A DNA stretch of 64,000 nucleotides from Zeus faber (taxonomy: Eukaryota > Chordata > Actinopteri > Zeiformes > Zeidae). The stretch lies in the NCBI GenBank assembly GCA_960531495.1, contig OY482863.1, positions 7,114,000 through 7,177,999 of the forward strand. The letters are read 5' to 3'. The position numbers and the translations under genes were made by a program. Every line of letters starts with the position of its first letter. Positions within the stretch are counted from its first letter, which is position 1. Under the pieces are notes generated by a model. The model worked only from the letters and a program-made list of their open reading frames with translations. It made no database searches and had not been told where the DNA came from. Shown piece by piece: positions 24,486 to 63,329 of the stretch.

Positions 24486-24560
24486 TGTGCATGTGTGTGT
24501 GTGTGTGTGTGTGTATGTGTTGGGGTAGGTGAGGACTGGGGCAGGCGTCAGCACATCCCT

Positions 24561-24592
<32 letters not shown>

Positions 24593-24632
24593 TGGGGTAG
24601 GTGAGGACTGGGGCAGGCGTCAGCACATCCCT

Positions 24633-24664
<32 letters not shown>

Positions 24665-24704
24665 TGGGGTAGGTGAGGACTGGGGCAGGCGTCAGCACAT
24701 CCCT

Positions 24705-24751
<47 letters not shown>

Positions 24752-24786
24752 GGGGTAGGTGAGGACTGGGGCAGGCGTCAGCACAT

Positions 24787-24820
<34 letters not shown>

Positions 24821-24860
24821 TGGGGTAGGTGAGGACTGGGGCAGGCGTCAGCACATCCCT

Positions 24861-24909
<49 letters not shown>

Positions 24910-45908: not shown

Positions 45909-46214
45909 CAGTGGTACCTCCACTTACGACTGCATCTACCTACGACGGATCCAAGACACCAGCAGCGATAGTTGCCAAAATTTGTATCGACTTGCGACCG
46001 ACTGCTCCAAGATACAACATTGGAAATTTGCAGTTGGCGCGCCGTCAGTCGGCCGTCAGTCAGCGGGCGACCTACATGGCGTGTGCATGTAGTTCGTGGC
46101 TTATGGATATTTTTTTTCATATGACTGTGTTTGTTCTGTGTATTTTGGGAAAAATTTCCTTGACATACGACCGTTCTTATAGAACCAATTACAGTCGTAA
46201 GTCGAGGCACCACG
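45909..46214. mobile_element. mariner-type MITE with TA target sites
   Basis: Starts CAGTGGTACCTCCACTTACG and ends CGTAAGTCGAGGCACCACG, near-inverse ends flanked by TA (45,907-45,908 and 46,215-46,216). The 306-bp interior has no transposase. Ends of this type belong to the mariner/Tigger group. It sits at the left edge of the tRNA array. Confidence 0.8.
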
Positions 46215-46230: not shown

Positions 46231-46470
46231 GTGACTGACTTAGACGGAGCGGTGACTCGTCCAATAAAAATCAGTCTCAGGAGAAGGAGGCTGAGGATGG
46301 AGCTGCCAGGCAAGAGGAAAAGAGGAAGGCCAAAGAGAAGCCTTATGGAGGTGGTGAGGGAGGACATGCAGGCGGTTGGTGTTACGGAGGAAGATGCGCA
46401 GAACAGAAGGTATCGGAGGCAGATGATCTGCTGTGTCGACCCCTAACGGGAGCAGACCAAAGAAGAAGAT
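46231..46470 (+). mobile_element. LINE 3' end at left edge of array
   Basis: Encodes RRRLRMELPGKRKRGRPKR, then MEVVREDMQAVGV, EEDAQNRRYRRQMICCVDP and a stop, followed by the post-stop GGGAGCAG..AAAGAAGAAG. It is the C-terminus of the non-LTR retrotransposon ORF (RTE-like) that fills the spacers. Confidence 0.8.
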
Positions 46471-46785
46471 ACTTTCATGTTTTTTCGACAGGGTGTAGTA
46501 TGTCATTTTTGGATTTCTTTCGCCGTACTATATTTTGACATTTTTGGACATAGTACAGATGTCGTTTTTGGAAGTTTTCCAGCGTACTATATTTTGACAA
46601 TTTTTGACTGAGTATAGTATGTTGTTTTTGGGATGTTTTTCAGCATTATATATATGTTGATGTTTTTCTTCATAGTATAGTATGCAGTTTTTGGACATTC
46701 TTCGGCGTACAATTCTTTGATGAATTGTGTCCGTTTTGTACGTTTTTCAGCGTCGTAAACTTTCATGTTTTCTGCATCCATAGGA

Positions 46786-46858
46786 GCCTCGTTGGCGCAG
46801 TAGAAAGCGCGTCAGTCTCATAATCTGAAGGTCGTGAGTTCGACCCTCACACAGGGCA
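46786..46858 (+). tRNA. tRNA-Met (CAT), unit 1, weakened
   Basis: 73 nt with CTCATAA anticodon loop. The D-loop GGC is changed to GAA (losing conserved G19) and one acceptor pair is broken by ACAGGGC. TTTT follows at about +10. It may be poorly functional. Confidence 0.8.
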
Positions 46859-47172
46859 GGACTCCATTTTGTACCGATTGGCAAGACAATGGGACCAAGT
46901 TGGAAAGGATGTCCAGCAGGTTCAGCTGATGAAGGATAATGATGGGTTTGCAGATGACATTGTGATCTGTAGCGAGAGTCGGGAGCAGACTGAGTATAGT
47001 ATGTTGTTTTTGGGATGTTTTTCAGCATTATATATGTTGATGTTTTTCTTAATAGTATAGTATGTCGTTTTTGGACATTTTTCGGCATATAATTCTTTGA
47101 TGTATTTTGACATACGTCAGGTTTGTACGTTTTTCAGCGTCGTAAACTTTCATGTTTTCTGCATCCATAGGA
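46859..47172 (+). repeat. 314-bp spacer, first copy
   Basis: LINE codons YRLARQWDQVGKDVQQVQL are joined directly to FADDIVICSESREQ, showing an internal deletion of the RT domain. The FADD motif is the RT catalytic block. Subrepeats and the conserved tRNA leader follow. The same 314-bp form recurs at 50,717, 56,451 and 60,017. Confidence 0.88.
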
Positions 47173-47245
47173 GCCTCGTTGGCGCAGTAGGCAGCGCGTC
47201 AGTCTCATAATCTGAAGGTCGTGAGTTCGACCCTCACACGGGGCA
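47173..47245 (+). tRNA. tRNA-Met (CAT), unit 2
   Basis: Matches the array consensus: acceptor GCCTCGT with ACGGGGC, box A TGGCGCAGTAGG, box B GTTCGACCC, anticodon CAT, discriminator A. It is the elongator, not the initiator, type. TTTT terminator follows. Confidence 0.95.
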
Positions 47246-47695
47246 GGACTTGATTTTGTACCGATTGGCAAAACAAAGGGACCAAGTTGGGAAGGATGTC
47301 CAGCAGGTTCAGCTGATGAACAATGCTGACGAGCGACGAGTGTGTGTTGAGAAGGTGGAAGGACAACTTTGAGGAGTTGATCAACGAATAAAAGTACAGG
47401 GAAGGCCAGAGGGAGTTGCACTGCGTACTATATTTTGACATTTTGCGTGACATTTTTGGACATAGTACAGATGTCGTTTTTGGAAGTTTTTCAGCGTACT
47501 ATATTTTGACAATTTTTGACTGAGTACAGTATGTTGTTTTTGGGACCTTTTTCAGCATTGTATATGTTGATGTTTTTCTTAATAGTATAGTATGTAGTTT
47601 TTGGACATTCTTCGGCGTACAATTCTTTGATGTATTGTGTCAGTTTTGTACGTTTTTCAGCGTCGTAAACGTTCATGTTTTCTGCATCCATAGGA
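47246..47695 (+). repeat. 450-bp spacer
   Basis: Short LINE N-terminal part with deletions, a YREGQRELHC remnant and subrepeats. The same length and sequence recur at 55,088-55,537. Confidence 0.85.
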
Positions 47696-47768
47696 GCCTC
47701 GTTGGCGCAGTAGGCAGCGCGTCTGTCTCATAATCTGAAGGTCGTGAGTTCAAGCCTCACACGGGGCA
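47696..47768 (+). tRNA. tRNA-Met (CAT), unit 3, variant
   Basis: Full length with A to T in the anticodon stem (TCTGT), which breaks one pair, and T-loop TTCAAGC, which keeps the box B pattern. TTTT follows. Confidence 0.85.
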
Positions 47769-48630
47769 GGAGCTCATTTTGTACCGATTGGCAAGACAAA
47801 GGATGTACAGCAGGTTTGTCTGATGAAGGATAATGATGGGAATCTTCTCAGTCGGTGGAAGGAGGAGTTGATGAATGAAGAAAAGTACAGGGAAGTCCAG
47901 AGGGAGTTGCTCTGCCTCTTTGTGGATTTAGAGAAAGCATATGATAGGCTGCCGAGAGAGCAAGTGGGGTCTTGCATGAGGAAGTCAGGGGTGGCAAAGA
48001 AGTAGGTATGAGTGGTACAGGATATGTATGAGGACAGTCAGACAGTAGTAAGGTGTGCAGCAGGCGTGACAAATACCTTCAAAGTGGAGGTGGGATTGCA
48101 TCAAGGATCAGCTCTGAACCCTTTCTGGTATTGCAATGCTGATCAGGCACGAGTCTCTGTGGACTATGATGTTCGCGGATGACATTGGGATCTGTAGCGA
48201 GAGTCGGGAGCAGGTTGAGGAGAGCCTGGAGAAGTGGAGGCATGCGTTAGAGAGAAGAGGAATGAAAGTCAGCAGGAGTAAGACAGAATACATGTGCCTG
48301 AATGGGAGGGAGGGCGGTGAAAAGCTGAGAATGCAAGGAGCGGAGACACTGTTTGTCTCCACCCTGGAAAGGGAGAGGATGCTGAAGGAGTGGAGAAGAA
48401 GTGTACTGGTACCCATCTTCAAGAGATGAGAGTTACACTGGGAGAAGGAGGCTGAGGATGGAGCTGCCAGGCAAGAGGAAAAGAGGAAGGACAAAGAGAA
48501 GCCTTATGGAGGTGGTGAGGGAGGACATGCAGGCGGTTGGTGGAAGGGGGGAAGATGCACAGAACAGAAGGTATTGAAGGCAGATGATCCGCTGTGTCGA
48601 CCCCTAACGGGAGCAGCCCAAAGAAGAAGA
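47769..48630 (+). mobile_element. LINE ORF pieces, longest spacer type
   Basis: Shows in order LFVDLEKAYDRLPREQV (RT motif A region), MFADDIGICSESREQ (RT motif C), MKVSRSKTEYMCLNG, KEWRRSVLVPIFKR and the C-terminal RRLRMELPGK block, in different frames. RT is not intact. Related pieces at 51,783-52,643 and 57,806-58,668. Confidence 0.85.
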
Positions 48631-48956
48631 TACTTTCATGCTTTTTCGACAGAGTTCAGTATGTCATTTTTGGATTTCTTTCGGCGTACTATATTTTGTC
48701 ATTTTGCGTGACATTTTTGGACATAGTACAGATGTCGTTTTTGGATGTTTTTCAGCGTATTATATTTTGACAATTTTTGACTGAGTATACTATGTTGTTT
48801 TTGGGATGTTTTTCAACATTATACATGTTGATGTTTTTCTTAATAGTATAGTATGTAGTTTTTGGACATTCTTCGGCGTACAATTCTTTGATGTATTGTG
48901 TCCGTTTTGTACATTTTTCAGCGTCGTAAACTTTCATGTTTTCTGTATCCGTAGGA

Positions 48957-49029
48957 GCCTCGTTGGCGCAGTAGGCAGCGCGTCAGTCTCATAATCTGAA
49001 GGTCGTGAGTTCGACCCTCACACGGGGCA
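48957..49029 (+). tRNA. tRNA-Met (CAT), unit 4
   Basis: Identical to the array consensus over 73 nt; CCTTCATTTT terminator follows. Confidence 0.95.
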
Positions 49030-49510
49030 GGCCTTCATTTTGTACCGATTGGCAAAACAAAGGGACCAAGTTGGGAAGGATGTTCAGCTGATGAAGAATA
49101 CTGATGGCAATGTGCTGACAAGCGACGAGAGTGTGTTGAGAAGGTGGAAGGAGAACTTTGAGGAGTTGATCAATGAAGAAAATCAGAGCGAGAGAACAGT
49201 GGATGATGTGGGGATAGTGGATCAACAAGTGCAGCAAATTTGCAAGGATGAGCTGAGAACAGCATTAAAGAAGATGGAGAGTGGAAAGGCATTCCCAATG
49301 ATGGGAATCTTCTCAGTCGGTGGAAGGAGGAGTTGATGAATGAAGAAAAGTACAGGGAAGTCCAGAGGGAGTTGCTCTGCCTCTTTGTGGATTTAGAGAA
49401 AGCATATGATAGGCTGCCGAGAGAGCAAGTGGGGTCTTGCATGAGGAAGTCAGGGGTAAAAGATGGAGTGGAAAGGCACTTGGTCCATATGACACACCTG
49501 TGGAAGCAGG
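49030..49510 (+). mobile_element. LINE ORF pieces in 675-bp spacer
   Basis: YRLAKQRDQVGKDVQL, ESVLRRWKENFEELINEEN and IVDQQVQQICKDELRTALKK read in one frame. Then a junction leads to the EEKYREVQRELLCLFVDLEK piece, placed out of normal order. Counterpart at 61,340-61,830. Confidence 0.8.
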
Positions 49511-49704
49511 GAAATGTTCAATTTTTGACTGAGTATAATATGTTGTTTTTGGGACCTTTTTCAGCATTATATATGTTGATGTTTTTCTTAATAGTATAGT
49601 ATGTAGTTTTTGGACATTCTTCGGCGTACAATTCTTTGATGTATTGTGTCCGTTTTGTACGTTTTTCAGCGTCATAAACTTTCATGTTTTCTGCATCCAT
49701 GGGA

Positions 49705-49777
49705 GTCTCGTTGGCGCAGTAGGCAGCGCGTCAGTCTCATAATCTGAAGGTCGTGAGTTCGACCCTCACACGGGGCA
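49705..49777 (+). tRNA. tRNA-Met (CAT), unit 5, acceptor variant
   Basis: Starts GTCTCGT; C2 to T leaves a G-T wobble with the acceptor 3' strand. Otherwise consensus, and a CTTTT terminator follows. Confidence 0.9.
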
Positions 49778-50330
49778 GGTCATGCTTTTGTACCGATTGG
49801 CAAAACAATGGGACCACGTTGGAAAGGATGTCCAGCAGGTTCGGCTGATGAAGGATAATGATGGCAATGTGCTGACGAGCGTGTGTTGAGAAGGTGGAAG
49901 GAGAACTTTGAGGAGTTGATCAATGAAGAAAATCAGAGTAAGTGGATGATGTGGGGATATTGGAACAACAAGTGCAGCAAATTTGCAAGGATGATGTGAG
50001 GACAGCAAGATAAAAGATGGAGTGGAAAGGAACTTGGTCCACATGACACCTGTGGAAGCAGGCAAATGTTTAGGTGTGATGGCGGTGGCCTTCCGAGAAG
50101 TGTACTGGTACCCATCTTCAAGCGATGAGAGTTACATTGGGAGAAGGAGGCTGAGGATGGAGCTGCCAGGCAAGAGGAAAAGAGGAAGACCAAAGAGAAG
50201 CCTTATGGAGGTGGTGAGGGAGGACATGCAGGCGGTTGGTGTTACGGAGGAAGATACGCAGAACAGAAGGTATCGGAGGCAGATGATCCGCTCTGTCGAC
50301 CCCTAACGGGAGCAGCCCAAAGAAGAAGGT
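49778..50330 (+). mobile_element. LINE ORF pieces in 866-bp spacer
   Basis: Frame-broken N-terminal part, then EVYWYPSSSDESYIG and the C-terminal RRLRMELPGK block to the stop and 3' UTR start. Nearly identical segments at 55,611, 59,080 and 60,404. Confidence 0.8.
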
Positions 50331-50643
50331 ATTTTCATTTTTTTCGACAGAGTTTAGTATGTCATTTGGATTTTTTTCGCTGTACTAAATTTTGACATTT
50401 CCAACGTAGTATAGCATGTCGTTTTTTGGAAGTTTTTCAGCGTACTATATTTTGACAATTTTTGACTGAGTACAGTATGTTGTTTTTGGGACGTTTTTCA
50501 GCATTATATATATGTTGATGTTTTTCTTAATAGTATAGTATGAAGTTTTTGGACATTCTTCGGCGTACAAATCTTTGATGAGTTGTGTCAGTTTTGTACG
50601 TTTTTCAGCGTCGTAAACTTTCATGTTTTCTGCATCCATAGGA

Positions 50644-50716
50644 GCCTCGTTGGCGCAGTAGGCAGCGCGTCAGTCTCATAATCTGAAGGTCGTGAGTTCG
50701 ACCCTCACACGGGGCA
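50644..50716 (+). tRNA. tRNA-Met (CAT), unit 6
   Basis: Identical to the array consensus; CTTCATTTT follows. Confidence 0.95.
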
Positions 50717-51030
50717 GGACTTCATTTTGTACCGATTGGCAAGACAATGGGACCAAGTTGGAAAGGATGTCCAGCAGGTTCAGCTGATGAAGGATAATGA
50801 TTGGTTCGCGGATGACATTGTGATCTGTAGCGAGAGTCGGGAGCAGATTGAGTATAGTATGTTGTTTTTGGGACGTTTTTCAGCATTATATATGTTTATG
50901 TTTTTCTTAATAGTATAGTATGTCGTTTTTGGACATTCTTCGTTGTACAATTCTTTGATGTATTTTGACATACGTCAGTTTTGTATGTTTTGCAGCGTCG
51001 TAAACGTTCATGTTTTCTGCCTCCATTGGA
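50717..51030 (+). repeat. 314-bp spacer, second copy
   Basis: Same structure as 46,859-47,172, with the same RT deletion joining QLMKDND to FADDIV. Confidence 0.88.
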
Positions 51031-51103
51031 GCCTCGTTGGCGCAGTAGGCAGCGCGTCAGTCTCATAATCTGAAGGTCGTGAGTTCGACCCTCACACGGG
51101 GCA
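51031..51103 (+). tRNA. tRNA-Met (CAT), unit 7
   Basis: Identical to the array consensus; CTTCATTTT follows. The leader has CTCCATTGGA in place of ATCCATAGGA. Confidence 0.95.
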
Positions 51104-51635
51104 GGACTTCATTTTGTACCGATTGGCAAGACAAAGGGACCAAGTTGGGAAGGATGTTCAGCTGATGAAGAATACTGATGGCAATGTGCTGACGAGCGAC
51201 GAGAGTGTGTTGAGATGATGGAAGGAGAACTTTGAGGAGTTGATCAATGAAGAAAATCAGAGCGAGAGAACAGTGGATGATGTGGGGATAGTGGATCAAC
51301 AAGTGCAGCAAATTTGCAAGGATGAGCTGAGAACAGCATTAAAGAAGATGGAGAGTGGAAAGGCACTTGGTCCATATGACACACCTGTGGAAGTAGGGAA
51401 ATGTTGAGGTGAGATGGCGGTGGCCTTCCTAACAAGACTGTCGCAACGCCACCCTGGAATAGGAGAGGATGCTGAAGAAGTGTACTGGTACCCATCTTCA
51501 AGAGATGAGAGTTACACTGGGAGAAGGAGGTTGAGGATGGAGCTGCCAGGCAAGAGGGAAAGAGGAAGGCCAAAGAGAAGCCTTATGGAGGTGGTGAGGG
51601 AGGACATGCAGGCGGTTGGTGGAAGGGAGGAGGAT
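51104..51635 (+). mobile_element. LINE ORF pieces, spacer after unit 7
   Basis: N-terminal RT-side codons broken by a TGA (LRRW to L-R-stop-W), then the C-terminal block cut at AVGGREEDRHS and fused directly to the AT-rich subrepeat. Confidence 0.78.
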
Positions 51636-51732
51636 AGACATAGTATAGCAAACTCGTTTCTGGAAGTTTTTCAGCGTAGTATATTGCCATGTTTTCAACA
51701 GAGTTCAGTAGGTCATTTTTGAACATTTTTCG

Positions 51733-51782
51733 GCCTCAGTCTCATAATCTGAAGGTCGTGAGTTCAAGCCTCACACGGGGCA
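51733..51782 (+). pseudogene. tRNA-Met remnant, unit 8
   Basis: GCCTC is joined to AGTCTCATAATCTGAAGG, so the D arm and nearby bases are deleted, possibly through a shared TC. The anticodon arm, T arm and 3' acceptor strand remain. It lacks box A and cannot fold as a normal tRNA. Confidence 0.85.
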
Positions 51783-52643
51783 GGAGCTCATTTTGTACCG
51801 ATTGGCAAGACAAAGGATGTACAGCAGGTTTGTCTGATGAAGGATAATGATGGGAATCTTCTCAGTCAGTGGAAGGAGGAGTTGATGAATGAAGAAAAGT
51901 ACAGGGAAGTCCAGAGGGAGTTGCTCTGCCTCTTTGTGGATTTAGAGAAAGCATATGATAGGCTGCCGAGAGAGCAAGTGGGGTCTTGCATGAGGAAGTC
52001 AGGGGTGGCAAAGAAGTAGGTATGAGTGGTACAGGATATGTATGAGGACAGTCAGACAGCAGTAAGGTGTGCAGCAGGCGTGACAAAGACCTTCAAAGTG
52101 GAGGTGGGATTGCATCAAGGATCAGCTCTGAACCCTTTCTGGTTTTGCAATGCTGATCAGGCACGAGTCTCTGTGCACTATGATGTTCGCGGATGACATT
52201 GGGATCTGTAGAGAGAGTCGGGAGCAGGTTGAGGAGAGCCTGGAGAAGTGGAGGCATGCGTTAGAGAGAAGAGGAATGAAAGTCAGCAGGAGTAAGACAG
52301 AATACATGTGCCTGAATGGGAGGGAGGGCGGTGAAAAGCTGAGAATGCAAGGAGCGGAGACACTGTTTGTCTCCACCCTGGAACGGGAGAGGATGCTGAA
52401 GGAGTGGAGAAGAAGTGTACTGGTATCCATCTTCAAGAGATGAGAGTTACACTGGGAGAAGGAGGCTGAGGATGGAGCTGCCAGGCAAGAGGAAACGAGG
52501 AAGGACAAAGAGAAGCCTTATGGAGGTGGTGAGGGAGGACATGCAGGCGGTTGGTGTTATGGAGGAAGATGCGCAGAACAGAAGGTGTTGGAGGCAGATG
52601 ATCCGCTGTGTCGACCCCTAACGGGAGCAGCCCAAAGAAGAAG
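51783..52643 (+). mobile_element. LINE ORF pieces, longest spacer type
   Basis: Close copy of 47,769-48,630 with the same AYDRLPREQ, FADDIGIC and MELPGK blocks; differences are single bases, e.g. CSES to CRES after FADDIGI. Confidence 0.85.
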
Positions 52644-52954
52644 GTATTTTCATTTTTTTCGACAGAGTTTAGTATGTCATTTGGATTTTTTTCGCTGTAC
52701 TAAATTTTGACATTTCCAACGTAGTATAGCATGTCGTTTTTTGGAAGTTTTTTAGCAAACTACATTGTGACATTTTTCGACAGAGTATAGTATGTTGTTT
52801 TTGGAACGTTTTTCAACATTATATATGTTGATGTTTTTCTTAATAGTATAGTATGTAGTTTTTGGACATTCTTCGGCGTACAATTCTTTGATGTATTGTC
52901 TGTTTTGTACGTTTTTCAGCGTCATAAACTTTCATGTTGTCTGCATCCACAGGA

Positions 52955-53027
52955 GCCTCGTTGGCGCAGTAGGCAGCGCGTCAGTCTCATAATCTGAAGG
53001 TCGTGAGTTCGACCCTCACACGGGGCA
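52955..53027 (+). tRNA. tRNA-Met (CAT), unit 9
   Basis: Identical to the array consensus over 73 nt, then AGTCATACTTTT. The leader reads GTTGTCTGCATCCACAGGA, slightly changed. Confidence 0.95.
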
Positions 53028-53570
53028 AGTCATACTTTTGTACCGATTGGCAAAACAATGGGACCAAGTTGGGAAGGATGTCCGGCTGATGAAGAATACT
53101 GATGGGAATGTGCTGACGAGAAGGTGGAAGGAGAATTTTGAGGAGTTGATCAATGAAGAAAATCAGAGCGAGAGAACAGTGGATGATGTGGGGATAGTGG
53201 ATAGTGGATCAACAAGTGCAGCAAATTTGCAAGGATGAGCTGAGAACAGCATTAAAGAAGATGGAGAGTGGAAAGGCACTTGGTCCATATGACACACCTG
53301 TGGAAGCAGGGAAATGTTGAGGTGAGATGGCGGTGGCCTTCCTAACAAGACTGTCGCAACGCCACCCTGGAATAGGAGAGGATGCTGAAGAAGTGGAGAA
53401 GAAGTGTACTGGTACCCATCTTCAAGAGATGAGAGTTACACTGGGAGAAGGAGGCTGAGGATGGAGCTGCCAGGCAATAGGAAACGAGGAAGGCCAAAGA
53501 GAAGCCTTATGGAGGTGGTGAGGGAGGACATTGAGGCGGTTGGTGGAAGGGAGGACGATAGACATAGTAT
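53028..53570 (+). mobile_element. LINE ORF pieces, spacer after unit 9
   Basis: N-terminal codons, with a small GATAGTG duplication that shifts frame, then the C-terminal block ending at VGGREDDRHS and fused to subrepeats that continue to about 53,990. No stop or 3' UTR is kept. Confidence 0.78.
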
Positions 53571-54001
53571 AGCATTTCGTTTCTGGAAGTTTTTCAGCGT
53601 AGTATATTGCCATGTTTTCAACAGAGTTCAGTAGGTCATTTTTGAACATTTTTCGGCGTAGTATATTGTGATGTTTTTCAATACAGTACAGCATGTCATT
53701 TTCAAATGTTTTTCAGTGTTGGATATGTTTACGTTGTTTTTCATAGTATAGTATGTCATTTTTGTCGAAAAACGTCATGTTTTGACGTTTTTTTGACAAT
53801 TCTTTGATGTATCTTATAGTATGTTCTTATAGTATGTTGTATGTTGTTTTTCAACATTATATATGTTGATGTTTTTCTTAATAGTATAGTATGTAGTTTT
53901 TGGACATTCTTCGGCGTACAATTCTTTGATGTATTTTGACATACGTCAGTTTTGTACGTTTTTCAGCGTCGTAAACTTTCATGTTTTCTGCATCCATAGG
54001 A

Positions 54002-54067
54002 GCCTCGTTGGCGCAGCGCGTCAGTCTCATAATCTGAAGGTCGTGAGTTCGACCCTCACACGGGGCA
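54002..54067 (+). pseudogene. tRNA-Met with shortened D arm, unit 10
   Basis: 66 nt, missing TAGGCAG of the D loop between two GCAGCGC-like words. Anticodon, T arm and acceptor are intact. Probably non-functional, although box B and TTTT remain. Confidence 0.85.
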
Positions 54068-54693
54068 GGACTCCATTTTGTTCCGATTGGCAAGACAAAG
54101 GGACCAAGTTGGGAAGGATGTCCAGCAGGTTCAGCTGATGAACAATACTGATGGCAATGTGCTGACGGGCGACGACAGTGTGTTGAGAAGGTGGAAGGAG
54201 AACTTTGAGGAGTTGATCAATGAAGAAAATCAGAGCGAGAGAACAGTGGATGATGTGGGGATAGTGGATCAACAAGTGCAGCAAATTTGCAAGGATGAGC
54301 TGAGAACAGCATTAAAGAAGATGGAGAGTGGAAAGGCACTTGGTCCATATGACACACCTGTGGAAGCAGGGAAATGTTGAGGTGAGATGGCGGTGGCCTT
54401 CCTAACAAGACTGTCGCAACGCCACCCTGGAATAGGAGAGAATGCTGAAGAAGTGGAGAAGAAGTGTACTGGTACCCATCTTCAAGAGATGAGAGTTACA
54501 CTGGGAGAAGGAGGCTGAGGATGGAGCTGCCAGGCAAGAGGAAAAGAGGAAGGACAAAGAGAAGCCTTATGGAGGTGGTGAGGGAGGACATGCAGGTGGT
54601 TGGTGTTACGGAGGAAGATGCGCAGAAGAGAAGGTATCGGAGGCAGATGATCTGCTGTGTCGACCCCTAACGGGAGCAGGCCAGAGAAGAAGA
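54068..54693 (+). mobile_element. LINE ORF pieces, spacer after unit 10
   Basis: The cleanest N-terminal stretch: FRLARQRDQVGKDVQQVQ through ENFEELINEENQSERT and KALGPYDTPVEAGKC, then a stop, then the C-terminal block to the stop codon. All RT catalytic blocks are missing. Confidence 0.8.
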
Positions 54694-55014
54694 TACTTTC
54701 ATGTTTTTTCGACAGAGTTTAGTATGTCATTTTTGGATTTCTTTCGCCGTACTATATTTTGACATTTTTGGACATAGTACAGATGTCGTTTTTGGAAGTT
54801 TTCCAGCGTACTATATTTTGACAATTTTTGACTGAGTATAGTATGTTGTTTTTGGGATGTTTTTCACCATTATATATGTTGATGTTTTTCTTAATAGTAT
54901 AGTATGTCGTTTTTGGACATTTTTCGGCATATAATTCTTTGATGTATTTTGACATACGTCAGGTTTGTACGTTTTTCAGCGTCGTAAACTTTCATGTTTT
55001 CTGCATCCATAGGA

Positions 55015-55087
55015 GCCTCGTTGGCGCAGTAGGCAGCGCGTCAGTCTCATAATCTGAAGGTCGTGAGTTCGACCCTCACACGGGGCA
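55015..55087 (+). tRNA. tRNA-Met (CAT), unit 11
   Basis: Identical to the array consensus; CTTCATTTT follows. Confidence 0.95.
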
Positions 55088-55537
55088 GGACTTCATTTTG
55101 TACCGATTGGCAAGACAAAGGGACCAAGTTGGGAAGGATGTCCAGCAGGTTCAGCTGATGAACAATGCTGACGAGCGACGAGTGTGTGTTGAGAAGGTGG
55201 AAGGACAACTTTGAGGAGTTGATCAACGAATAAAAGTACAGGGAAGGCCAGAGGGAGTTGCACTGCGTACTATATTTTGACATTTTGCGTGACATTTTTG
55301 GACATAGTACAGATGTCGTTTTTGGAAGTTTTTCAGTGTACTATATTTTGACAATTTTTGACTGAGTACAGTATGTTGTTTTTGGGACCTTTTTCAGCAT
55401 TATATATGTTGATGTTTTTCTTAATAGTATAGTATGTAGTTTTTGGACATTCTTCGGCGTACAAATCTTTGATGTAGTGTGTCAGTTTTGTACGTTTTTC
55501 AGCGTCCTGAACTTTCATGTTTTCTGCATCCTCGGGA
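55088..55537 (+). repeat. 450-bp spacer, second copy
   Basis: Same as 47,246-47,695 with a few base changes. The leader is changed to GCATCCTCGGGA. Confidence 0.85.
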
Positions 55538-55610
55538 GCCTCGTTGGCGCAGTAGGCAGCGCGTCAGTCTCATAATCTGAAGGTCGTGAGTTCGACCCTC
55601 ACACGGGGCA
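55538..55610 (+). tRNA. tRNA-Met (CAT), unit 12
   Basis: Identical to the array consensus; ATGCTTTT follows. Confidence 0.95.
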
Positions 55611-56160
55611 GGTCATGCTTTTGTACCGATTGGCAAAACAATGGGACCACGTTGGAAAGGATGTCCAGCAGGTTCGGCTGATGAAGGATAATGATGGCAA
55701 TGTGCTGACGAGCGTGTGTTGAGAAGGTGGAAGGAGAACTTTGAGGAGTTGATCAATGAAGAAAATCAGAGTAAGTGGATGATGTGGGGATATTGGAACA
55801 ACAAGTGCAGCAAATTTGCAAGGATGATGTGAGGACAGCAAGATAAAAGATGGAGTGGAAAGGAACTTGGTCCACATGACACCTGTGGAAGCAGGCAAAT
55901 GTTTAGGTGTGATGGCGGTGGCCTTCCGAGAAGTGTACTGGTACCCATCTTCAAGCGATGAGAGTTACATTGGGAGAAGGAGGCTGAGGATGGAGCTGCC
56001 AGGCAAGAGGAAAAGAGGAAGACCAAAGAGAAGCCTTATGGAGGTGGTGAGGGAGGACATGCAGGCGGCTGGTGTTACGGAGGAAGATGCGCAGAACAGA
56101 AGGTATTGGAGGCAGATGATCCGCTCTGTCGACCCCTAACGGGAGCAGCCCAAAGAAGAA
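55611..56160 (+). mobile_element. LINE ORF pieces, 767-bp spacer
   Basis: Close copy of 49,778-50,330. The whole spacer is about 100 bp shorter because a block of subrepeats before the leader is deleted (ATTATATCGTCGTAAAC junction near 56,337). Confidence 0.8.
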
Positions 56161-56377
56161 GGTATTTTCATTTTTTTCGACAGAGTTTAGTATGTCATTT
56201 GGATTTTTTTCGCTGTACCAAATTTTGACATTTCCAACGTAGTATAGCATGTCGTTTTTTGGAAGTTTTTCAGCGTACTATATTTTGACATTTTTTGACT
56301 GAGTACAGTATGTTGTTTTTGGGACGTTTTTCAGCATTATATCGTCGTAAACTTTCATGTTTTCTGCATCCATAGGA

Positions 56378-56450
56378 GCCTCGTTGGCGCAGTAGGCAGC
56401 GCGTCAGTCTCATAATCTGAAGGTCGTGAGTTCGACCCTCACACGGGGCA
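56378..56450 (+). tRNA. tRNA-Met (CAT), unit 13
   Basis: Identical to the array consensus; CTTCATTTT follows. Confidence 0.95.
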
Positions 56451-56764
56451 GGGCTTCATTTTGTACCGATTGGCAAGACAATGGGACCAAGTTGGAAAGG
56501 ATGTCCAGCAGGTTCAGCTGATGAAGGATAATGATTGGTTCGCGGATGACAATGTGATCTGTAGCGAGAGTCGGGAGCAGATTGAGTATAGTATGTTGTT
56601 TTTGGGACGTTTTTCAGCATTATATATGTTTATGTTTTTCTTAATAGTATAGTAGGTCGTTTTTGGACATTCTTCGTTGTACAATTCTTTGATGTATTTT
56701 GACATACGTCAGTTTTGTATGTTTTGCAGCGTCGTAAACGTTCATGTTTTCTGTCTCCATGGGA
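56451..56764 (+). repeat. 314-bp spacer, third copy
   Basis: Same as 50,717-51,030 with single changes, e.g. FADDIV to FADDNV. Confidence 0.88.
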
Positions 56765-56837
56765 GCCTCGTTGACGCAGTAGGCAGCGCGTCAGTCTCAT
56801 AATCTGAAGGTCGTGAGTTCGACCCTCACACGGGGCA
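56765..56837 (+). tRNA. tRNA-Met (CAT), unit 14, box A variant
   Basis: G10 to A (TTGACGCAG), which changes box A and the first D-stem pair. Otherwise consensus with TTTT after. Confidence 0.88.
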
Positions 56838-57430
56838 GGACTTCATTTTGTACCGATTGGAGAGACAAAGGGACCAAGTTGGGAAGGATGTTCAGCTGAT
56901 GAAGAATACTGATGGCAATGTGCTGACGAGCGACGAGAGTGTGTTGAGAAGGTGGAAGGAGAACTTTGAGGAGTTGATCAATGAAGAAAATCAGAGCGAG
57001 AGAACAGTGGCTGATGTGGGGATAGTGGATCAACAAGTGCAGCAAATTTGCAAGGATGAGCTGAGAACAGCATTAAAGAAGATGGAGAGTGGAAAGGCAC
57101 TTGGTCCATATGACACACCTGTGGAAGTAGGGAAATGTTGAGGTGAGATGGCGGTGGCCTTCCTAACAAGACTGTCGCAACGCCACCCTGGAATAGGAGA
57201 GGATGCTGAAGAAGTGGAGAAGAAGTGTACTGGTACCCATCTTCAAGAGATGAGAGTTACACTGGGAGAAGGAGGTTGAGGATGGAGCTGCCAGGCAAGA
57301 GGAAAAGAGGAAGGCCAAAGAGAAGCCTTATGGAGGTGGTGAGGAGGGACATGCAGGCGGTTGGTGTTACGGAGGAAGATGCGCAGAACAGAAGGTAGAC
57401 ATGCAGGCGGTTGGTGGAAGGGAGGAGGAT
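56838..57430 (+). mobile_element. LINE ORF pieces, spacer after unit 14
   Basis: Clean N-terminal stretch to PYDTPVEVGKC, then a C-terminal block with a short internal duplication (ACATGCAGGCGGTTGGTG occurs twice near 57,349 and 57,398), then fused to subrepeats. Confidence 0.8.
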
Positions 57431-57732
57431 AGACATAGTATAGCAAACTCGTTTCTGGAAGTTTTTCAGCGTAGTATATTGCCATGTTTTCAACAGAGTT
57501 CAGTAGTTCATTTTTGAATATTTTTCGGCTTAGTACATTGTGATGTTTTTCAATACAGTACAGCATGTCATTTTCCAATGTTTTTCGGTGTTGTATATGT
57601 TTACGTTTTTCTTCATCGTATAGTATGTCATTTTTGTCAAAAAACGTCAAGACATGACGTTTTTTGACATCGAATGTCAGTTTTGTACGTTTTTCAGCGT
57701 CGTAAACTTTCATGTTTTCTGCATCCTCGGGA

Positions 57733-57805
57733 GCCTCGTTGGCGCAGTAGGCAGCGCGTCAGTCTCATAATCTGAAGGTCGTGAGTTCGACCCTCACACG
57801 GGGCA
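57733..57805 (+). tRNA. tRNA-Met (CAT), unit 15
   Basis: Identical to the array consensus; GCTCATTTT follows. Confidence 0.95.
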
Positions 57806-58668
57806 GGAGCTCATTTTGTACCGATTGGCAAGACAAAGGATGTACAGCAGGTTTGTCTGATGAAGGATAATGATGGGAATCTTCTCAGTCGGTGAAAGGA
57901 GGAGTTGATGAATGAAGAAAAGTACAGGGAAGTCCAGAGGGAGTTGCTCTGCCTCTTTGTGGCTTTAGAGAAAGCATATGATAGGCTGCCGAGAGAGCAA
58001 GTGGGGTCTTGCATGAGGAAGTCAGGGGTGGCAAAGAAGTAGGTATGAGTGGTACAGGATATGTATGAGGACAGTCAGACAGCAGTAAGGTGTGCAACAG
58101 GCGTGACAAAGACCTTCAAAGTGGAGGTGGGATTGCATCAAGGATCAGCTCTGAACCCTTTCTGGTTTTGCAATGCTGATCAGGCACGAGTCTCTGTGGA
58201 CTATGATGTTCGCGGATGACATTGGGATCTGTAGCGAGAGTCGGGAGCAGGTTGAGGAGAGCCTGGAGAAGTGGAGGCATGCGTTAGAGAGAAGAGGAAT
58301 GAAAGTCAGCAGGAGTAAGACAGAATACATGTGCCTGAATGGGAGGGAGGGCGGTGAAAAGCTGAGAATGCAAGGAGCGGAGACACTGTTTGTCTCCACC
58401 CTGGAAAGGGAGAGGATGCTGAAGGAGTGGAGAAGAAGTGTACTGGTATCCATCTTCAAGAGATGAGAGTTACACTGGGAGAAGGAGGCTGAGGATGGAG
58501 CTGCCAGGCAAGAGGAAAAGAGGAAGGACAAAGAGAAGCCTTATGGAGGTGGTGAGGGAGGACATGCAGGCGGTTGGTGGAAGGGGGGAAGATGCGCAGA
58601 ACAGAAGGTATTGAAGGCAGATGATCCGCTGTGTCGACCCCTAACAGGAGCAGCCCAAAGAAGAAGAT
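57806..58668 (+). mobile_element. LINE ORF pieces, longest spacer type
   Basis: Third copy of the 47,769 type, with FADDIGICSESREQ and MKVSRSKTEYMCLNG intact and RT motif A reading FVALEKAYDRLP (D to A at the first catalytic Asp). Confidence 0.85.
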
Positions 58669-59006
58669 ACTTTCATGCTTTTTCGACAGAGTTCAGTATG
58701 TCATTTTTGGATTTCTTTCGGCGTACTATATTTTGACATTTTGCGTGACATTTTTGCGTGACATTTTTGGACATAGTACAGATGTCGTTTTTGGAAGTTT
58801 TTCAGCGTATTATATTTTGACAATTTTTGACTGAGTATACTATGTTGTTTTTGGGATGTTTATCAACATTATACATGTTGATGTTTTTCTTAATAGTATA
58901 GTATGTAGTTTTTGGACATTCTTCGGCGTACAATTCTTTGATGTATTGTGTCCGTTTTGTACGTTTTTCAGCGTCATAAACTTTCATGTTTTCTGCATCC
59001 ATGGGA

Positions 59007-59079
59007 GCCTCGTTGGCGCAGTAGGCAGCGCGTCAGTCTCATAATCTGAAGGTCGTGAGTTCGACCCTCACACGGGGCA
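59007..59079 (+). tRNA. tRNA-Met (CAT), unit 16
   Basis: Identical to the array consensus; ATGCTTTT follows. Confidence 0.95.
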
Positions 59080-59629
59080 GGTCATGCTTTTGTACCGATT
59101 GGCAAAACAATGGGACCACGTTGGAAAGGATGTCCAGCAGGTTCGGCTGATGAAGGATAATGATGGCAATGTGCTGACGAGCGTGTGTTGAGAAGGTGGA
59201 AGGAGAACTTTGAGGAGTTGATCAATGAAGAAAATCAGAGTAAGTGGATGATGTGGGGATATTGGAACAACAAGTGCAGCAATTTTGCAAGGATGATGTG
59301 AGGACAGCAAGATAAAAGATGGAGTGGAAAGGAACTTGGTCCACATGACACCTGTGGAAGCAGGCAAATGTTTAGGTGTGATGGCGGTGGCCTTCCGAGA
59401 AGTGTACTGGTACCCATCTTCAAGCGATGAGAGTTACATTGGGAGAAGGAGGCTGAGGATGGAGCTGCCAGGCAAGAGGAAAAGAGGAAGACCAAAGAGA
59501 AGCCTTATGGAGGTGGTGAGGGAGGACATGCAGGCGGTTGGTGTTACGGAGGAAGATGCGCAGAACAGAAGGTATTGGAGGCAGATGATCCGCTCTGTCG
59601 ACCCCTAACGGGAGCAGCCCAAAGAAGAA
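59080..59629 (+). mobile_element. LINE ORF pieces, 864-bp spacer
   Basis: Nearly identical to 49,778-50,330 and 60,404-60,955. Confidence 0.8.
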
Positions 59630-59943
59630 GGTATTTTCATTTTTTTCGACAGAGTTTAGTATGTCATTTGGATTTTTTTCGCTGTACTAAATTTTGACAT
59701 TTCCAACGTAGTATAGCATGTCGTTTTTTGGAAGTTTTTCAGCGTACTATATTTTGACAATTTTTGACTGGGTACAGTATGTTGTTTTTGGGACGTTTTT
59801 CAGCATTATATATGTTGATGTTTTTCTTAATAGTATAGTATGAAGTTTTTGGACATTCTTCGGCGTACAAATCTTTGATGAGTTGTGTCAGTTTTGTACG
59901 TTTTTCAGCGTCGTAAACTTTCATGTTTTCTGCATCCATAGGA

Positions 59944-60016
59944 GCCTCGTTGGCGCAGTAGGCAGCGCGTCAGTCTCATAATCTGAAGGTCGTGAGTTCA
60001 ACCCTCACACGGGGCA
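59944..60016 (+). tRNA. tRNA-Met (CAT), unit 17
   Basis: One change in the T loop (TTCAACC), still matching box B. TTTT follows. Confidence 0.93.
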
Positions 60017-60330
60017 GGACTTCATTTTGTACCGATTGGCAAGACAATGGGACCAAGTTGGAAAGGATGTCCAGCAGGTTCAGCTGATGAAGGATAATGA
60101 TTGGTTCGCGGATGACATTGTGATCTGTAGCGAGAGTCGGGAGCAGATTGAGTATAGTATGTTGTTTTTGGGACGTTTTTCAGCATTATATATGTTTATG
60201 TTTTTCTTAATAGTATAGTATGTCGTTTTTGGACATTCTTCGTTGTACAATTCTTTGATGTATTTTGACATACGTCAGTTTTGTATGTTTTGCAGCGTCG
60301 TAAACGTTCATGTTTTCTGCCTCCATTGGA
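60017..60330 (+). repeat. 314-bp spacer, fourth copy
   Basis: Appears identical to 50,717-51,030 by eye, including the CTCCATTGGA leader. Confidence 0.88.
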
Positions 60331-60403
60331 GCCTCGTTGGCGCAGTAGGCAGCGCGTCAGTCTCATAATCTGAAGGTCGTGAGTTCGACCCTCACACGGG
60401 GCA
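60331..60403 (+). tRNA. tRNA-Met (CAT), unit 18
   Basis: Identical to the array consensus; ATGCTTTT follows. Confidence 0.95.
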
Positions 60404-60955
60404 GGTCATGCTTTTGTACCGATTGGCAAAACAATGGGACCACGTTGGAAAGGATGTCCAGCAAGTTCGGCTGATGAAGGATAATGATGGCAATGTGCTG
60501 ACGAGCGTGTGTTGAGAAGGTGGAAGGAGAACTTTGAGGAGTTGATCAATGAAGAAAATCAGAGTAAGTGGATGATGTGGGGATATTGGAACAACAAGTG
60601 CAGCAAATTTGCAAGGATGATGTGAGGACAGCAAGATAAAAGATGGAGTGGAAAGGAACTTGGTCCACATGACACCTGTGGAAGCAGGCAAATGTTTAGG
60701 TGTGATGGCGGTGGCCTTCCGAGAAGTGTACTGGTACCCATCTTCAAGCGATGAGAGTTACATTGGGAGAAGGAGGCTGAGGATGGAGCTGCCAGGCAAG
60801 AGGAAAAGAGGAAGACCAAAGAGAAGCCTTATGGAGGTGGTGAGGGAGGACATGCAGGCGGTTGGTGTTACGGAGGAAGATGCGCAGAACAGAAGGTATT
60901 GGAGGCAGATGATCCGCTGTGTCGACCCCTAACGGGAGCAGCCCAAAAAGAAGGT
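60404..60955 (+). mobile_element. LINE ORF pieces, 863-bp spacer
   Basis: Another near-identical copy of the 866-bp spacer type, ending with the C-terminal MIRCVDP-stop and CCCAAAAAGAAGG. Confidence 0.8.
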
Positions 60956-61266
60956 ATTTTCATTTTTTTCGACAGAGTTTACAATGTCATTTGGATTTTT
61001 TTCGCTGTACTAAATTTTGACATTTCCAACGTAGTATAGCATGTCGTTTTTTGGAAGTTTTTCAGCGTACTATATTTTGACAATTTTTGACTGAGTATAC
61101 TATGTTGTTTTTGGGATGTTTTTCAACATTATACATGTTGATGTTTTTCTTAATAGTATAGTATGTAGTTTTTGGACATTCTTCGGCGTACAATTCTTTG
61201 ATGTATTGTGTCCGTTTTGTACATTTTTCAGCGTCGTAAACTTTCATGTTTTCTGCATCCGTAGGA

Positions 61267-61339
61267 GCATCGTTGGCGCAGTAGGCAGCGCGTCAGTCTC
61301 ATAATCTGAAGGTCGTGAGTTCGACCCTCACACGGGGCA
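61267..61339 (+). tRNA. tRNA-Met (CAT), unit 19, acceptor variant
   Basis: Starts GCATCGT; C3 to A breaks the third acceptor pair. Otherwise consensus with TTTT after. Confidence 0.88.
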
Positions 61340-61830
61340 GGACTTCATTTTGTACCGATTGGCAAAACAAAGGGACCAAGTTGGGAAGGATGTTCAGCTG
61401 ATGAAGAATACTGATGGCAATGTGCTGACGAGCGACGAGAGTGTGTTGAGAAGGTGGAAGGAGAACTTTGAGGAGTTGATCAATGAAGAAAATCAGAGCG
61501 AGAGAACAGTGGCTGATGTGGGATAGTGGATCAACAAGTGCAGCAAATTTGCAAGGATGAGCTGAGAACAGCATTAAAGAAGATGGAGAGTGGAAAGGCA
61601 TTCCCAATGATGGGAATCTTCTCAGTCGGTGGAAGGAGGAGTTGATGAATGAAGAAAAGTACAGGGAAGTCCAGAGGGAGTTGCTCTGCCTCTTTGTGGA
61701 TTTAGAGAAAGCATATGATAGGCTGCCGAGAGAGCAAGTGGGGTCTTGCATGAGGAGGTCAGGGGTAAAAGATGGAGTGGAAAGGCACTTGGTCCATATG
61801 ACACACCTGTGGAAGCAGGGAAATGTTCAA
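61340..61830 (+). mobile_element. LINE ORF pieces in 674-bp spacer
   Basis: Close copy of 49,030-49,510, one base shorter because GGGGATAG became GGGATAG, which shifts frame. Same out-of-order EEKYREVQREL junction. Confidence 0.8.
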
Positions 61831-62013
61831 TTTTTGACTGAGTATAATATGTTGTTTTTGGGACCTTTTTCAGCATTATATATGTTGATGTTTTTCTTAA
61901 TAGTATAGTATGTAGTTTTTGGACATTCTTCGGCGTACAATTCTTTGATGTATTGTGTCCGTTTTGTACGTTTTTCAGCGTCATAAACTTTCATGTTTTC
62001 CGCATCCATGGGA

Positions 62014-62077
62014 GCCTCGTTGGCGCAGTAGGCAGCGCGTCAGTCTCATAATCTGAAGGTCGTGAGTTCGACCCTCA
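62014..62077 (+). pseudogene. tRNA-Met cut at 3' end, unit 20
   Basis: Consensus up to the T-stem CCCTCA, then replaced by TAGACATAGTATAGC of the subrepeat. The 3' acceptor strand and terminator are lost, so no mature tRNA can form. Confidence 0.88.
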
Positions 62078-62164
62078 TAGACATAGTATAGCATGTCGTT
62101 TCTGGAAGTTTTTACGCGTAGTATATTGCCATGTTTTCATCAGAGTTCAGTAGGTCATTTTTGG

Positions 62165-62432
62165 ACTGGAATAGGAGAGGATGCTGAAGAAGTGGAGAAG
62201 AAGTGTACTGGTACCCATCTTCAAGAGATGAGAGTTACACTGGGAGAAGGAGGCTGAGGATGGAGCTGCCAGGCAAGAGGAAAAGAGGAAGGACAAAGAG
62301 AAGCCTTATGGAGGTGGTGAGGGAGGACATGCAGGCGGTTGGTGTTACGGAGGAAGATGCGCAGAACAGAAGGTATTCGAGGCAGATGATCCGCTGTGTC
62401 GACCCCTAACGGGAGCAGCCCAGAGAAGAAGA
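62165..62432 (+). mobile_element. LINE C-terminal piece after unit 20
   Basis: MYWYPSSRDESYTG, RRLRMELPGKRKRGRTKR and VTEEDAQNRRYSRQMIRCVDP-stop, without the N-terminal part usually found after a tRNA. The unit 20 truncation and this deletion probably arose together. Confidence 0.78.
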
Positions 62433-62710
62433 TACTTTCATGTTTTTTCGACAGAGTTTAGTATGTCATTTGGATTTTTTCGCATGTCGTTTTTTGGAAG
62501 TTTTTTCAGCAAACTACATTGTGACATTTTTCGACATAGTATAGTATGTTGTTTTTGGAATGTTTTTCAGCATTGTATATGTTGATGTTTTTCTTAATAG
62601 TATAGTATGTAGTTTTTGGACATTTTTCGGCGTACAATTCTTTGATGTATTGTGTCCGTTTTGTACGTTTTTCAGCGTCGTAAACTTTCATGTTTGCTGC
62701 ATCCATTGGA

Positions 62711-62783
62711 GCCTCGTTGGCGCAGTAGGCAGCACGTCAGTCTCATAATCTGAAGGTCGTGAGTTCGACCCTCACACGGGGCA
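62711..62783 (+). tRNA. tRNA-Met (CAT), unit 21, D-stem variant
   Basis: GCAGCAC instead of GCAGCGC breaks one D-stem pair. TTTT follows. Last tRNA of the array in this window. Confidence 0.88.
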
Positions 62784-63150
62784 GGACTTCATTTTGTACC
62801 GATTGGCAAGACAAAGGGACCAATTTGGGAAGGATGTCCAGCTGATGAAGGATACTGATGGCATTGTGCTGACGAGCGACGAGAGTGTGTTGAGAAGGTG
62901 GAAGGAGAACTTTGAGGAGTTGATCAATGAAGAAAATCAGAGCAAGAGAACAGTGGATGATGTGGGGATAGTGGATCAACAAGTGCAGCAAATTAGCAAG
63001 GATGAGGTGGGAGTAGCATTAAAGAAGTGAAGAGGCAGCTGGCCAAGATGACATACCTGGGGAAGTATGGGAATGTTTAGGTGACAGGGCAGTGGCCTTC
63101 CTGACCACACTGTCGCACCGCCGTCCTGGAAAGGGAGAGGATGCCGGAGG
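62784..63150 (+). mobile_element. LINE ORF N-terminal piece, right edge of array
   Basis: YRLARQRDQFGKDVQL, ENFEELINEENQSKRT and IVDQQVQQISKDEVGVALKK, then a stop, PGKYGN- and LTTLS-like codons further on. It is more diverged than the other copies, as expected at an array edge. Confidence 0.78.
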
Positions 63151-63329
63151 AGTTTGTCGTTTTTCAGTGTAGTACAATGTGATGTTTTTCAACATGGTTA
63201 ATTTTGTCGCTTTTGGACGTTTTTCGGCGTACAATACTTAGACCTTTTTTGTGCAGTATGTCGTTTAAGGAAGTTTTTGACATTTTTCGACATAGTAACA
63301 GCCGCCTAGCCACCTCAACTCCTCTCCAT

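Follow-up and report, generated by a model that had tools for sequence, protein, structure and literature searches.

A tRNA-Met/LINE array in Zeus faber whose tandem blocks interrupt a minisatellite within a 13-bp direct repeat

The window analyzed here is a 64,000-nucleotide stretch of the Zeus faber genome (contig OY482863.1 of assembly GCA_960531495.1), and all positions refer to it. It holds a composite array of LINE pieces, a minisatellite and 21 copies of an elongator tRNA-Met gene, spanning ~17 kb on the plus strand (46,280–63,297, delimited by self-BLAST, unit listing and minisatellite profile). A BLAST search with the 73-mer places all 21 copies on the plus strand, head to tail in a single orientation, as in a tandem tRNA gene array. 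ARAGORN predicts 19 tRNA-Met (CAT), all on the plus strand between 46,786 and 62,783, so that a cloverleaf with a CAT anticodon is found in 19 of the 21 copies, and 20 of the 21 exceed the gathering score of the Rfam tRNA model (11 at 63.1 bits, the others at 40.7–63.0). Neither ARAGORN nor BLAST with the 73-mer finds a tRNA elsewhere in the 64-kb window.

By BLAST, 19 copies are complete or nearly so, 11 of them identical and eight variant, and two are truncated. The identical 73-nt copies, recognized by ARAGORN, Rfam and BLAST alike, are represented by 47,173–47,245 (+); the other ten start at 48,957, 50,644, 51,031, 52,955, 55,015, 55,538, 56,378, 57,733, 59,007 and 60,331 (+). Near-complete copies with substitutions lie at 46,786–46,858 (+; ARAGORN, BLAST and Rfam, the latter giving 54.3–63.0 bits for the variant group) and start at 47,696, 49,705, 56,765, 59,944, 61,267 and 62,711 (+). 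A further copy (54,002–54,067, +; ARAGORN, BLAST) carries a 7-nt deletion that by its position falls in the D arm. Only the 3' part is left at 51,733–51,782 (+; BLAST), and the copy at 62,014–62,077 (+; Rfam, BLAST) retains the 5' part and lacks the 3' end. The latter is the sole exception to the presence of TTTT at +9 to +12 past the tRNA, which is found in 20 of 21 copies. The leader sequence is CTGCATCCATAGGA and the trailer GGACTTCATTTT, with trailers varying between units (eight types among 19 copies). The initial annotation had reported 21 tRNA-Met units in one orientation, 11 of them identical, with terminators and with boxes A and B; the counts, orientation and terminators are borne out, and both boxes are present in the 11 identical copies when judged by eye against the consensus.

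The spacers consist of rearranged pieces of a single reverse-transcriptase LINE and of a minisatellite, both oriented as the tRNA. This agrees with the earlier description of spacers built from one retrotransposon and a ~60-bp subrepeat. Unit lengths are highly uneven: 387 (four units), 523 (two), 679, 697, 747–748 (two), 840–939 (four), 968, 1,013, 1,047 and 1,245–1,274 bp (three), at a GC content of ~44–45%. Self-BLAST of the array shows long pairwise duplications scattered over many offsets, a mosaic without a fixed period. The array had also been called a higher-order one. The joint multiplication of tRNA, LINE and ~60-bp subrepeat stands, but a regular higher-order satellite is ruled out by units of 387–1,274 bp, their mosaic order and the absence of a constant period.

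The LINE, putatively RTE-like, retains a stretch with the FADD region of reverse transcriptase at 48,118–48,429 (+; Pfam RVT_1, E 1e-7) and has relatives among fish reverse transcriptases. An example block (54,076–54,693, +) extends from the tRNA terminator to the 3' end of the LINE and carries internal deletions. At all 20 array junctions the LINE similarity begins at LYRLA, directly at TTTTG with the tRNA upstream, so that a 5'-truncated LINE is fused to the tRNA in the same orientation in 20/20 cases, as in a chimeric retrocopy. In 25 of 52 relatives the protein continues upstream, with ERLDTKEGEKD running into LYRLARQ or a variant thereof; the remaining 27 lack the motif. The only relative of the array in window positions 1–46,230 (blastn, E up to 1e-5) is a separate 114-bp, 5'-truncated copy of the LINE 3' end at 2,775–2,888 (−). 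It shares its 3' end point with the array LINE and is flanked on either side by a 9-bp direct repeat, ATTAAACAA. Both the 3' end of the array LINE and its target-duplicating habit are thereby seen independently. Viral contigs contained no relatives of the array DNA in searches with the exact tRNA, a LINE protein stretch and the leader–tRNA junction.

Between the LINE end and the next tRNA lies the minisatellite, with a monomer of ~59–63 bp (for example 54,705–54,925, +). The tRNA and the LINE together interrupt it as one inserted block with a direct repeat at its two edges, a feature overlooked in the initial annotation. The 13-mer ACTTTCATGTTTT is found to the left of all 20 tRNAs with a preserved 5' end (14 exact, six with one mismatch; for example 50,617–50,629, +) and to the right of all ten LINE 3' ends (0–2 mismatches; for example 54,695–54,707, +, 1–2 bases past the LINE end). 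All 67 internal monomers spanning the site differ from the 13-mer by at least three mismatches, ten partial monomers being left out. This contrast, 30/30 edges against 0/67 internal monomers within two mismatches, admits no valid Fisher test, as the motif was chosen from those flanks and the copies are related. The commonest left copy is identical to an exact right copy over the full length, and similarity breaks off directly outside the repeat on both sides. In the minisatellite profile, the monomer extends to model position 35–41 left of the tRNA and picks up again at 23–24 after the LINE. The arrangement is that of one target-site duplication around the whole tRNA and LINE block, as in chimeric retrocopies.

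We consider the insertion of a precursor-tRNA/LINE chimera by target-primed reverse transcription, followed by amplification through recombination, the best reading of the locus, at roughly even odds (a probability of about 0.5). The inserted block would comprise a short 5' leader, the full tRNA-Met with its TTTT-ending 3' trailer and the 5'-truncated LINE, and its entry into one ~60-bp minisatellite monomer would have created the 13-bp target-site duplication. Its likeliest source would be a single chimeric cDNA, arising from a template switch in which the LINE reverse transcriptase left the LINE RNA for the U-tail of a precursor tRNA. The promoter of tRNA genes is internal (boxes A and B), and the inserted copy may for this reason have been ready for transcription on arrival. 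Recombination among minisatellite and LINE repeats could then have yielded the 21 block copies and left the LINE in a number of deletion classes, the tRNA bodies presumably being kept by selection during the amplification. Counting against the chimera, the tRNA parts of published tRNA/LINE-1 chimeras are mostly halves in antisense orientation, unlike the tRNA of the array (PMC13174262, in excerpt).

The partial resemblance of the tRNA trailer to the 13-mer is a hint of two insertions, one nested in the other, in place of a single chimera. In that case the LINE and the tRNA, the latter perhaps as a copy of its gene, would have hit one minisatellite target at separate times, each duplicating ACTTTCATG, and the trailer would be a degraded third instance of the motif with TTTT arising by chance. 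In shuffle tests of trailer against right flank, six of 12 comparisons give p below 0.05 (range <2e-4 to 0.57), and the best pair shares 10 nt, with 0 of 5,000 shuffles as good. Because the ACTTTCATG motif ends in TTTT, the LINE would likewise begin at a T run. Against this, two hits on one site are required along with separate deletions in both trailer types, none of the 20 trailers keeps the full 13-mer, and the commonest form of the left outer copy matches an exact right one over its full length. We regard nested insertions as unlikely, yet as the alternative that survives best.

The tRNA bodies are about five times less variable than their surroundings, with π of 0.016 against 0.085 in the far flanks, a flank value inflated by poor alignment beyond about −51 and +150, where spacer structure differs. 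Segregating sites number 10/73 in the tRNA and 82/208 in the far flanks (Fisher p 4e-5), and singletons make up 9/10 of the tRNA variants as against 38/82 of the far-flank variants (p 0.015); all p values are descriptive, since the array copies are not independent. In a well-aligned LINE stretch (coordinates 93–150), 14 of 58 sites segregate, ten of them in several copies, compared with one shared variant among the ten in the tRNA. The near flanks have π of 0.22, and variability over the aligned region is among its highest in the bases immediately 3' of the gene. Near-flank haplotypes number nine (5') and eight (3') in 19 copies, against at most seven in the far windows (152 overlapping windows, each with at least 15 gap-free copies). 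The 5' near-flank π (8-bp window) is matched by 11% of far windows, some upstream windows near −63 equal the 3' near flank in variability, and by segregating sites alone the near-flank excess is not significant (11/19 against 71/189, p 0.09). High near-flank variability is expected where mutagenesis acts next to tRNA genes that are transcribed, as stated in PMC8113476 (in excerpt). Taken with the terminators, the pattern of variation would fit Pol III genes that are active or were so until recently.

Many vertebrate tRNA copies are silent, and the array may be a silent, selfish satellite whose tRNAs are passengers, alike through youth of the array or through conversion. Eight of the 19 near-complete copies do carry changes, and two more copies are truncated. 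The flanks of those same copies, however, are several times more diverged, and conversion acting uniformly would not exempt just the tRNA body. CpG sites are also less decayed in the tRNA (4/132) than in the flanks (16/113). A silent satellite appears rather unlikely on this evidence. The full proposal is a functional array born by retrotransposition, in which a full-length precursor tRNA-Met was template-switched onto an RTE-like LINE, entered a minisatellite, was immediately active through its internal promoter, was multiplied by minisatellite recombination and had its tRNA bodies preserved by selection or transcription. It is offered tentatively and short of even odds.

Linkage within the array, as read from the aligned copies, appears to reflect general recombination only. 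Four-gamete pairs make up 33/54 across the tRNA, 55/151 upstream and 6/15 downstream (mean r2 0.06–0.09), and 3/7 across the tRNA against 24/64 upstream when the near flanks are left out. With 180-bp flanks, the nearest partner is identical on both sides in five of 20 units. A control with ~90-bp flanks finds the same nearest partner in 11/18 units across the tRNA, in 5, 6 and 8/18 upstream and in 15 and 15/18 downstream, which rules out the tRNA body as an exchange hotspot.

The array could also have formed as an ordinary cluster, a resident tRNA-Met gene beside a minisatellite having been tandemly duplicated with a LINE fragment as random passenger and without any retrotransposition of the tRNA. 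Teleost tRNA genes often occur in large parallel clusters, some with at least fifty members (PMC2888827, in excerpt), and a partial LINE is a passenger in the human tRNA array at 1q23.3 (PMC4041453, in excerpt). Such an origin leaves unexplained why the same 13-mer variant stands at both outer edges of the tRNA and LINE block and in 0/67 internal monomers, as well as why the LINE breakpoint coincides with the terminator, and we find it doubtful.

As tRNA genes can work as barriers, the block might be a Pol III/TFIIIC-marked or CTCF-bound boundary or insulator. CTCF binds the human 1q23.3 array (PMC4041453, in excerpt), and CTCF-like sites number 27 with one mismatch allowed, against 13.1 expected. 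The 26 minus-strand sites amount to two recurring 12-mers, CCGTGTGAGGGT (17 times) and CCGTTAGGGGTC (nine times), which by reading sit in the 3' half of the tRNA and at the 3' end of the LINE. They are therefore not independent evidence, and the excess is uninformative for a CTCF boundary. A boundary or insulator role seems highly improbable. At the level of sequence, a raised tRNA-Met supply, a boundary and a selfish array would look alike. Least probable of all, and only barely credible, is a copy number inflated or collapsed in assembly: tandem arrays are prone to such error, but the window contains no N, exact repeats reach at most 529 bp, followed by 417 and 405 bp, and the 70 longest self-matches listed are 84.7–98.5% identical, so that the copies are not duplicated haplotypes.

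Repeats of tRNA genes are known in Xenopus. The composite unit had been called unusual, and this holds in part. No tRNA/LINE/minisatellite array in fish appears among the literature matches listed, a set of titles and abstract starts with most subscription journals outside its scope. Tandem tRNA units that include part of a LINE and simple tandem repeats, however, have already been described at human 1q23.3 (PMC4041453, in excerpt), as has a tRNA-Cys array overlapping a Helitron in Arabidopsis (PMC10701932, in excerpt). The human units are 7.3 kb long, ~98% identical and GC-rich, and their five tRNA genes are of several kinds and occupy both strands, whereas the Zeus faber array lacks such a regular, near-identical unit and has one tRNA per unit, on one strand, fused to the LINE, at lower regularity and ~44–45% GC. 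The Arabidopsis cluster resembles it in having one tRNA per 0.4-kb unit, transposon sequence inside, variable copy number and 84–94% identity; it differs in its DNA transposon annotation, its four to six units and its plant host. The large parallel clusters of teleosts are similar in arrangement, but no LINE/minisatellite unit is described for them in PMC2888827 (in excerpt), and zebrafish pairs are mostly of mixed kinds, in contrast to an array of Met only. Entamoeba arrays share short tandem repeats between tRNA genes but belong to a protist, with up to five tRNAs per unit and no LINE mentioned at the start of the abstract (PMC2652664).

Chimeric retrocopies of tRNA/LINE-1 and U6/LINE-1 likewise join a small RNA to a 5'-truncated LINE within target-site duplications (PMC13174262, PMC4476161, both in excerpt), which measure 9–19 bp in eight sampled tRNA/LINE-1 chimeras (PMC13174262). 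These mammalian insertions are dispersed and their tRNA parts mostly antisense and of half length, whereas the array combines, in tandem, an RTE-like LINE with a tRNA of full length in sense orientation. Some tRNA-derived SINEs also unite a tRNA head with RTE-type LINE sequence (PMC13174262 citing Kojima 2018; PMC3747384; in excerpt). In the array, by contrast, the TTTT after the tRNA should halt transcription before the LINE, and the copies are tandem. On sequence, a tRNA-derived SINE array is ruled out by this terminator, and no tRNA-bearing copy occurs outside the array in the 64-kb window.

The array joins two published kinds of structure, chimeras of tRNA and LINE on the one hand and tRNA arrays that carry transposon pieces as passengers on the other. 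What is new is that tRNA and LINE jointly interrupt a minisatellite within a 13-bp direct repeat and that the LINE begins exactly at the tRNA terminator. The number and clustering of tRNA genes vary sharply among sequenced fishes (PMC2888827, in excerpt), and the start of new tRNA arrays is not well documented in the literature surveyed. If the chimera reading is true, insertion scar, breakpoint and amplification history are preserved together at this locus, which makes an origin by retrotransposition and later amplification testable through the empty site in relatives. The array illustrates a possible origin of tRNA gene arrays—probably by the insertion of a jumping gene that was multiplied later—and retroelements could, if this is so, seed new tRNA gene clusters.

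The array at 46,280–63,297 (+) accounts for every tRNA gene detected by ARAGORN in the 64-kb window: 19 tRNA-Met (CAT) genes, all on the forward strand at 46,786–62,783, and none outside that interval. Rfam gives 20 tRNA matches over its cut-off, and 11 of these score 63.1 bits. BLAST with the 73-mer returns 21 copies, comprising 11 identical ones, eight near-complete variants (the one at 54,002 (+) is missing 7 nt) and two truncated copies at 51,733 and 62,014 (+). TTTT occupies +9 to +12, after eight bases 3' of the tRNA, in 20 of the 21; the sole exception lacks its 3' end. Spacers contain pieces of a single LINE, after which comes a ~60-bp subrepeat; both run in the orientation of the tRNA. 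The initial annotation was thus correct in both copy counts, the retained terminator, the common orientation and the composition of the spacers. The LINE, which we take to be RTE-like, matches the reverse-transcriptase family RVT_1 at 48,118–48,429 (E 1e-7). A single-sequence search recovered one relative and a two-sequence profile 52, the named ones including the fishes Silurus, Erpetoichthys and Polypterus and the crustacean Petrolisthes. A separate retrotransposon polymerase relic lies at 7685–8038 (-) (RT_RNaseH, E 6e-23).

The block of tRNA leader, tRNA-Met, trailer and 5'-truncated LINE is described here as inserted in a MINISATELLITE. Left of the leader, the 60-bp monomer profile stops at model position 35–41, and it picks up at 23–24 after the LINE 3' end; within this overlap, one and the same 13-mer, ACTTTCATGTTTT, is found at both block edges. 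It is present with at most one mismatch at 20 of 20 left edges (14 exact) and with at most two at 10 of 10 right edges (three exact, two with one mismatch, five with two); all 67 internal monomers spanning the place, a count excluding 10 partial monomers, have at least three mismatches. Outside the 13-mer, sequences diverge immediately on the left and right. A 5'-truncated LINE copy ~43 kb from the array (2,775–2,888, (-)) contains 114 bp of the LINE 3' end and has 14 array matches, 10 of 106–114 bp at 87–92% identity and four shorter. In nine of the 10 long matches similarity ends no more than two bases from the 13-mer, so the right block edge is the end of the LINE. The same copy has a 9-bp direct repeat, ATTAAACAA, on both sides, so the LINE family does leave target-site duplications.

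At the breakpoint, in 20 of 20 array junctions, LINE similarity starts at LYRLA, inside the TTTTG ending the tRNA trailer, and the upstream sequence is tRNA. In the proteins of 25 of the 52 relatives, LYRLA or its variant is preceded by ERLDTKEGEKD or a variant, the remaining 27 being without this motif. The junction resembles U6/LINE-1 chimeras, described in the available part of the source as 5'-truncated LINEs joined to a Pol III RNA ending in uridines (PMC4476161). Chimeras of tRNA and LINE-1 with 9–19 bp duplications are also known, but, unlike the array, are mostly half-length and antisense; the same excerpt notes chimeras of RTE-type LINEs with tRNA, credited to Kojima 2018 (PMC13174262). 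We rank, without certainty, a single chimeric insertion over a nested one, in which the tRNA and the LINE may have entered the same target one after the other. Such sequential entry is possible because the trailers also resemble the 13-mer: shuffle p is <0.05 in six of 12 trailer/right-flank comparisons (range <2e-4 to 0.57), with 8–10 nt common to the best pairings. These matches, which weigh against a chimera, and the LINE copy at 2,775–2,888, which favors insertion, are about in balance. A tRNA-derived SINE fails as a reading because the TTTT should end transcription ahead of the LINE.

Recurring deletion classes revealed by marker positions comprise units of 387 bp (n = 4), 523 bp (n = 2), 747–748 bp (n = 2), 840–939 bp (n = 4) and 1,245–1,274 bp (n = 3), four units of 679–1,047 bp with another common layout, and single odd units at 62,014 and 62,711. 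Self-comparison reveals duplicated segments, the largest 1.9 kb, at many different offsets; the units therefore form a mosaic rather than a fixed higher-order repeat, the initial term 'higher-order array' is only loosely apt, and a regular satellite is rejected. A gross assembly artefact is improbable, given that the longest exact repeat is 529 bp and the window contains no N.

Other repeats are found in the window. An element of ~300 bp at 45911–46213 ends ~70 bp short of the array's left edge; with its 22-nt terminal inverted repeats (91% complementary) it resembles a small non-autonomous DNA transposon. At 15673–18273, 1.3 kb is duplicated in direct tandem (99.7% identical), and a 478-bp part of it recurs ~3.5 kb upstream at 12519–12996 (99.2%); this duplication is very recent. 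The minisatellite at 24493–24892 has a 72-bp unit of a (GT)n run and a 44-bp unique stretch, and diverged repeats at 31130–32379 and 41867–42201 are ~72% alike in opposite orientation.

The original paper on transcription-associated mutagenesis in tRNA genes is reportedly Thornlow 2018. Genes subject to it combine a conserved body with variable immediate flanks, according to the excerpt available (PMC8113476), and the array tRNAs are similar. In their body pi is 0.016, against 0.085 for the far flanks; variable positions are 10 of 73 versus 82 of 208, and singletons nine of 10 variants versus 38 of 82. Diversity jumps to 0.22 just outside the gene (permutation p 0.0013). Near-flank haplotypes among 19 copies number nine (5') and eight (3'), with at most seven in each of 152 overlapping far-flank windows. 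By segregating sites only, near and far flanks differ at p 0.09; 11% of far windows match the 5' near-flank pi, and windows around -63 about equal the 3' flank in variability. In addition, flank diversity is inflated where some spacers align poorly, and the copies are related to each other. Weighed against these reservations, the pattern of variation makes transcription of the array tRNAs likely. Decayed CpGs are fewer in the tRNA (4/132) than in the flanks (16/113), which could come from selection alone.

Some teleosts ordinarily have tRNA genes in large parallel clusters, as far as the cited excerpt goes (PMC2888827). In the portions available, every unit of a human tandem tRNA repeat includes part of a LINE together with simple repeats (PMC4041453), and a tRNA-Cys array in Arabidopsis overlaps with Helitrons (PMC10701932); both resemble the Zeus faber array in uniting tRNA with transposon sequence, so a composite of this sort is not new in kind. 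Among the matches listed, the literature search found no array with a bracketed tRNA-LINE insertion as its founding unit. For the role of the array, tRNA supply, a boundary and selfish spread are all candidates. We regard the array as real, mostly explained and moderately surprising: it joins two known kinds, tandem tRNA arrays and small-RNA/LINE chimeras.
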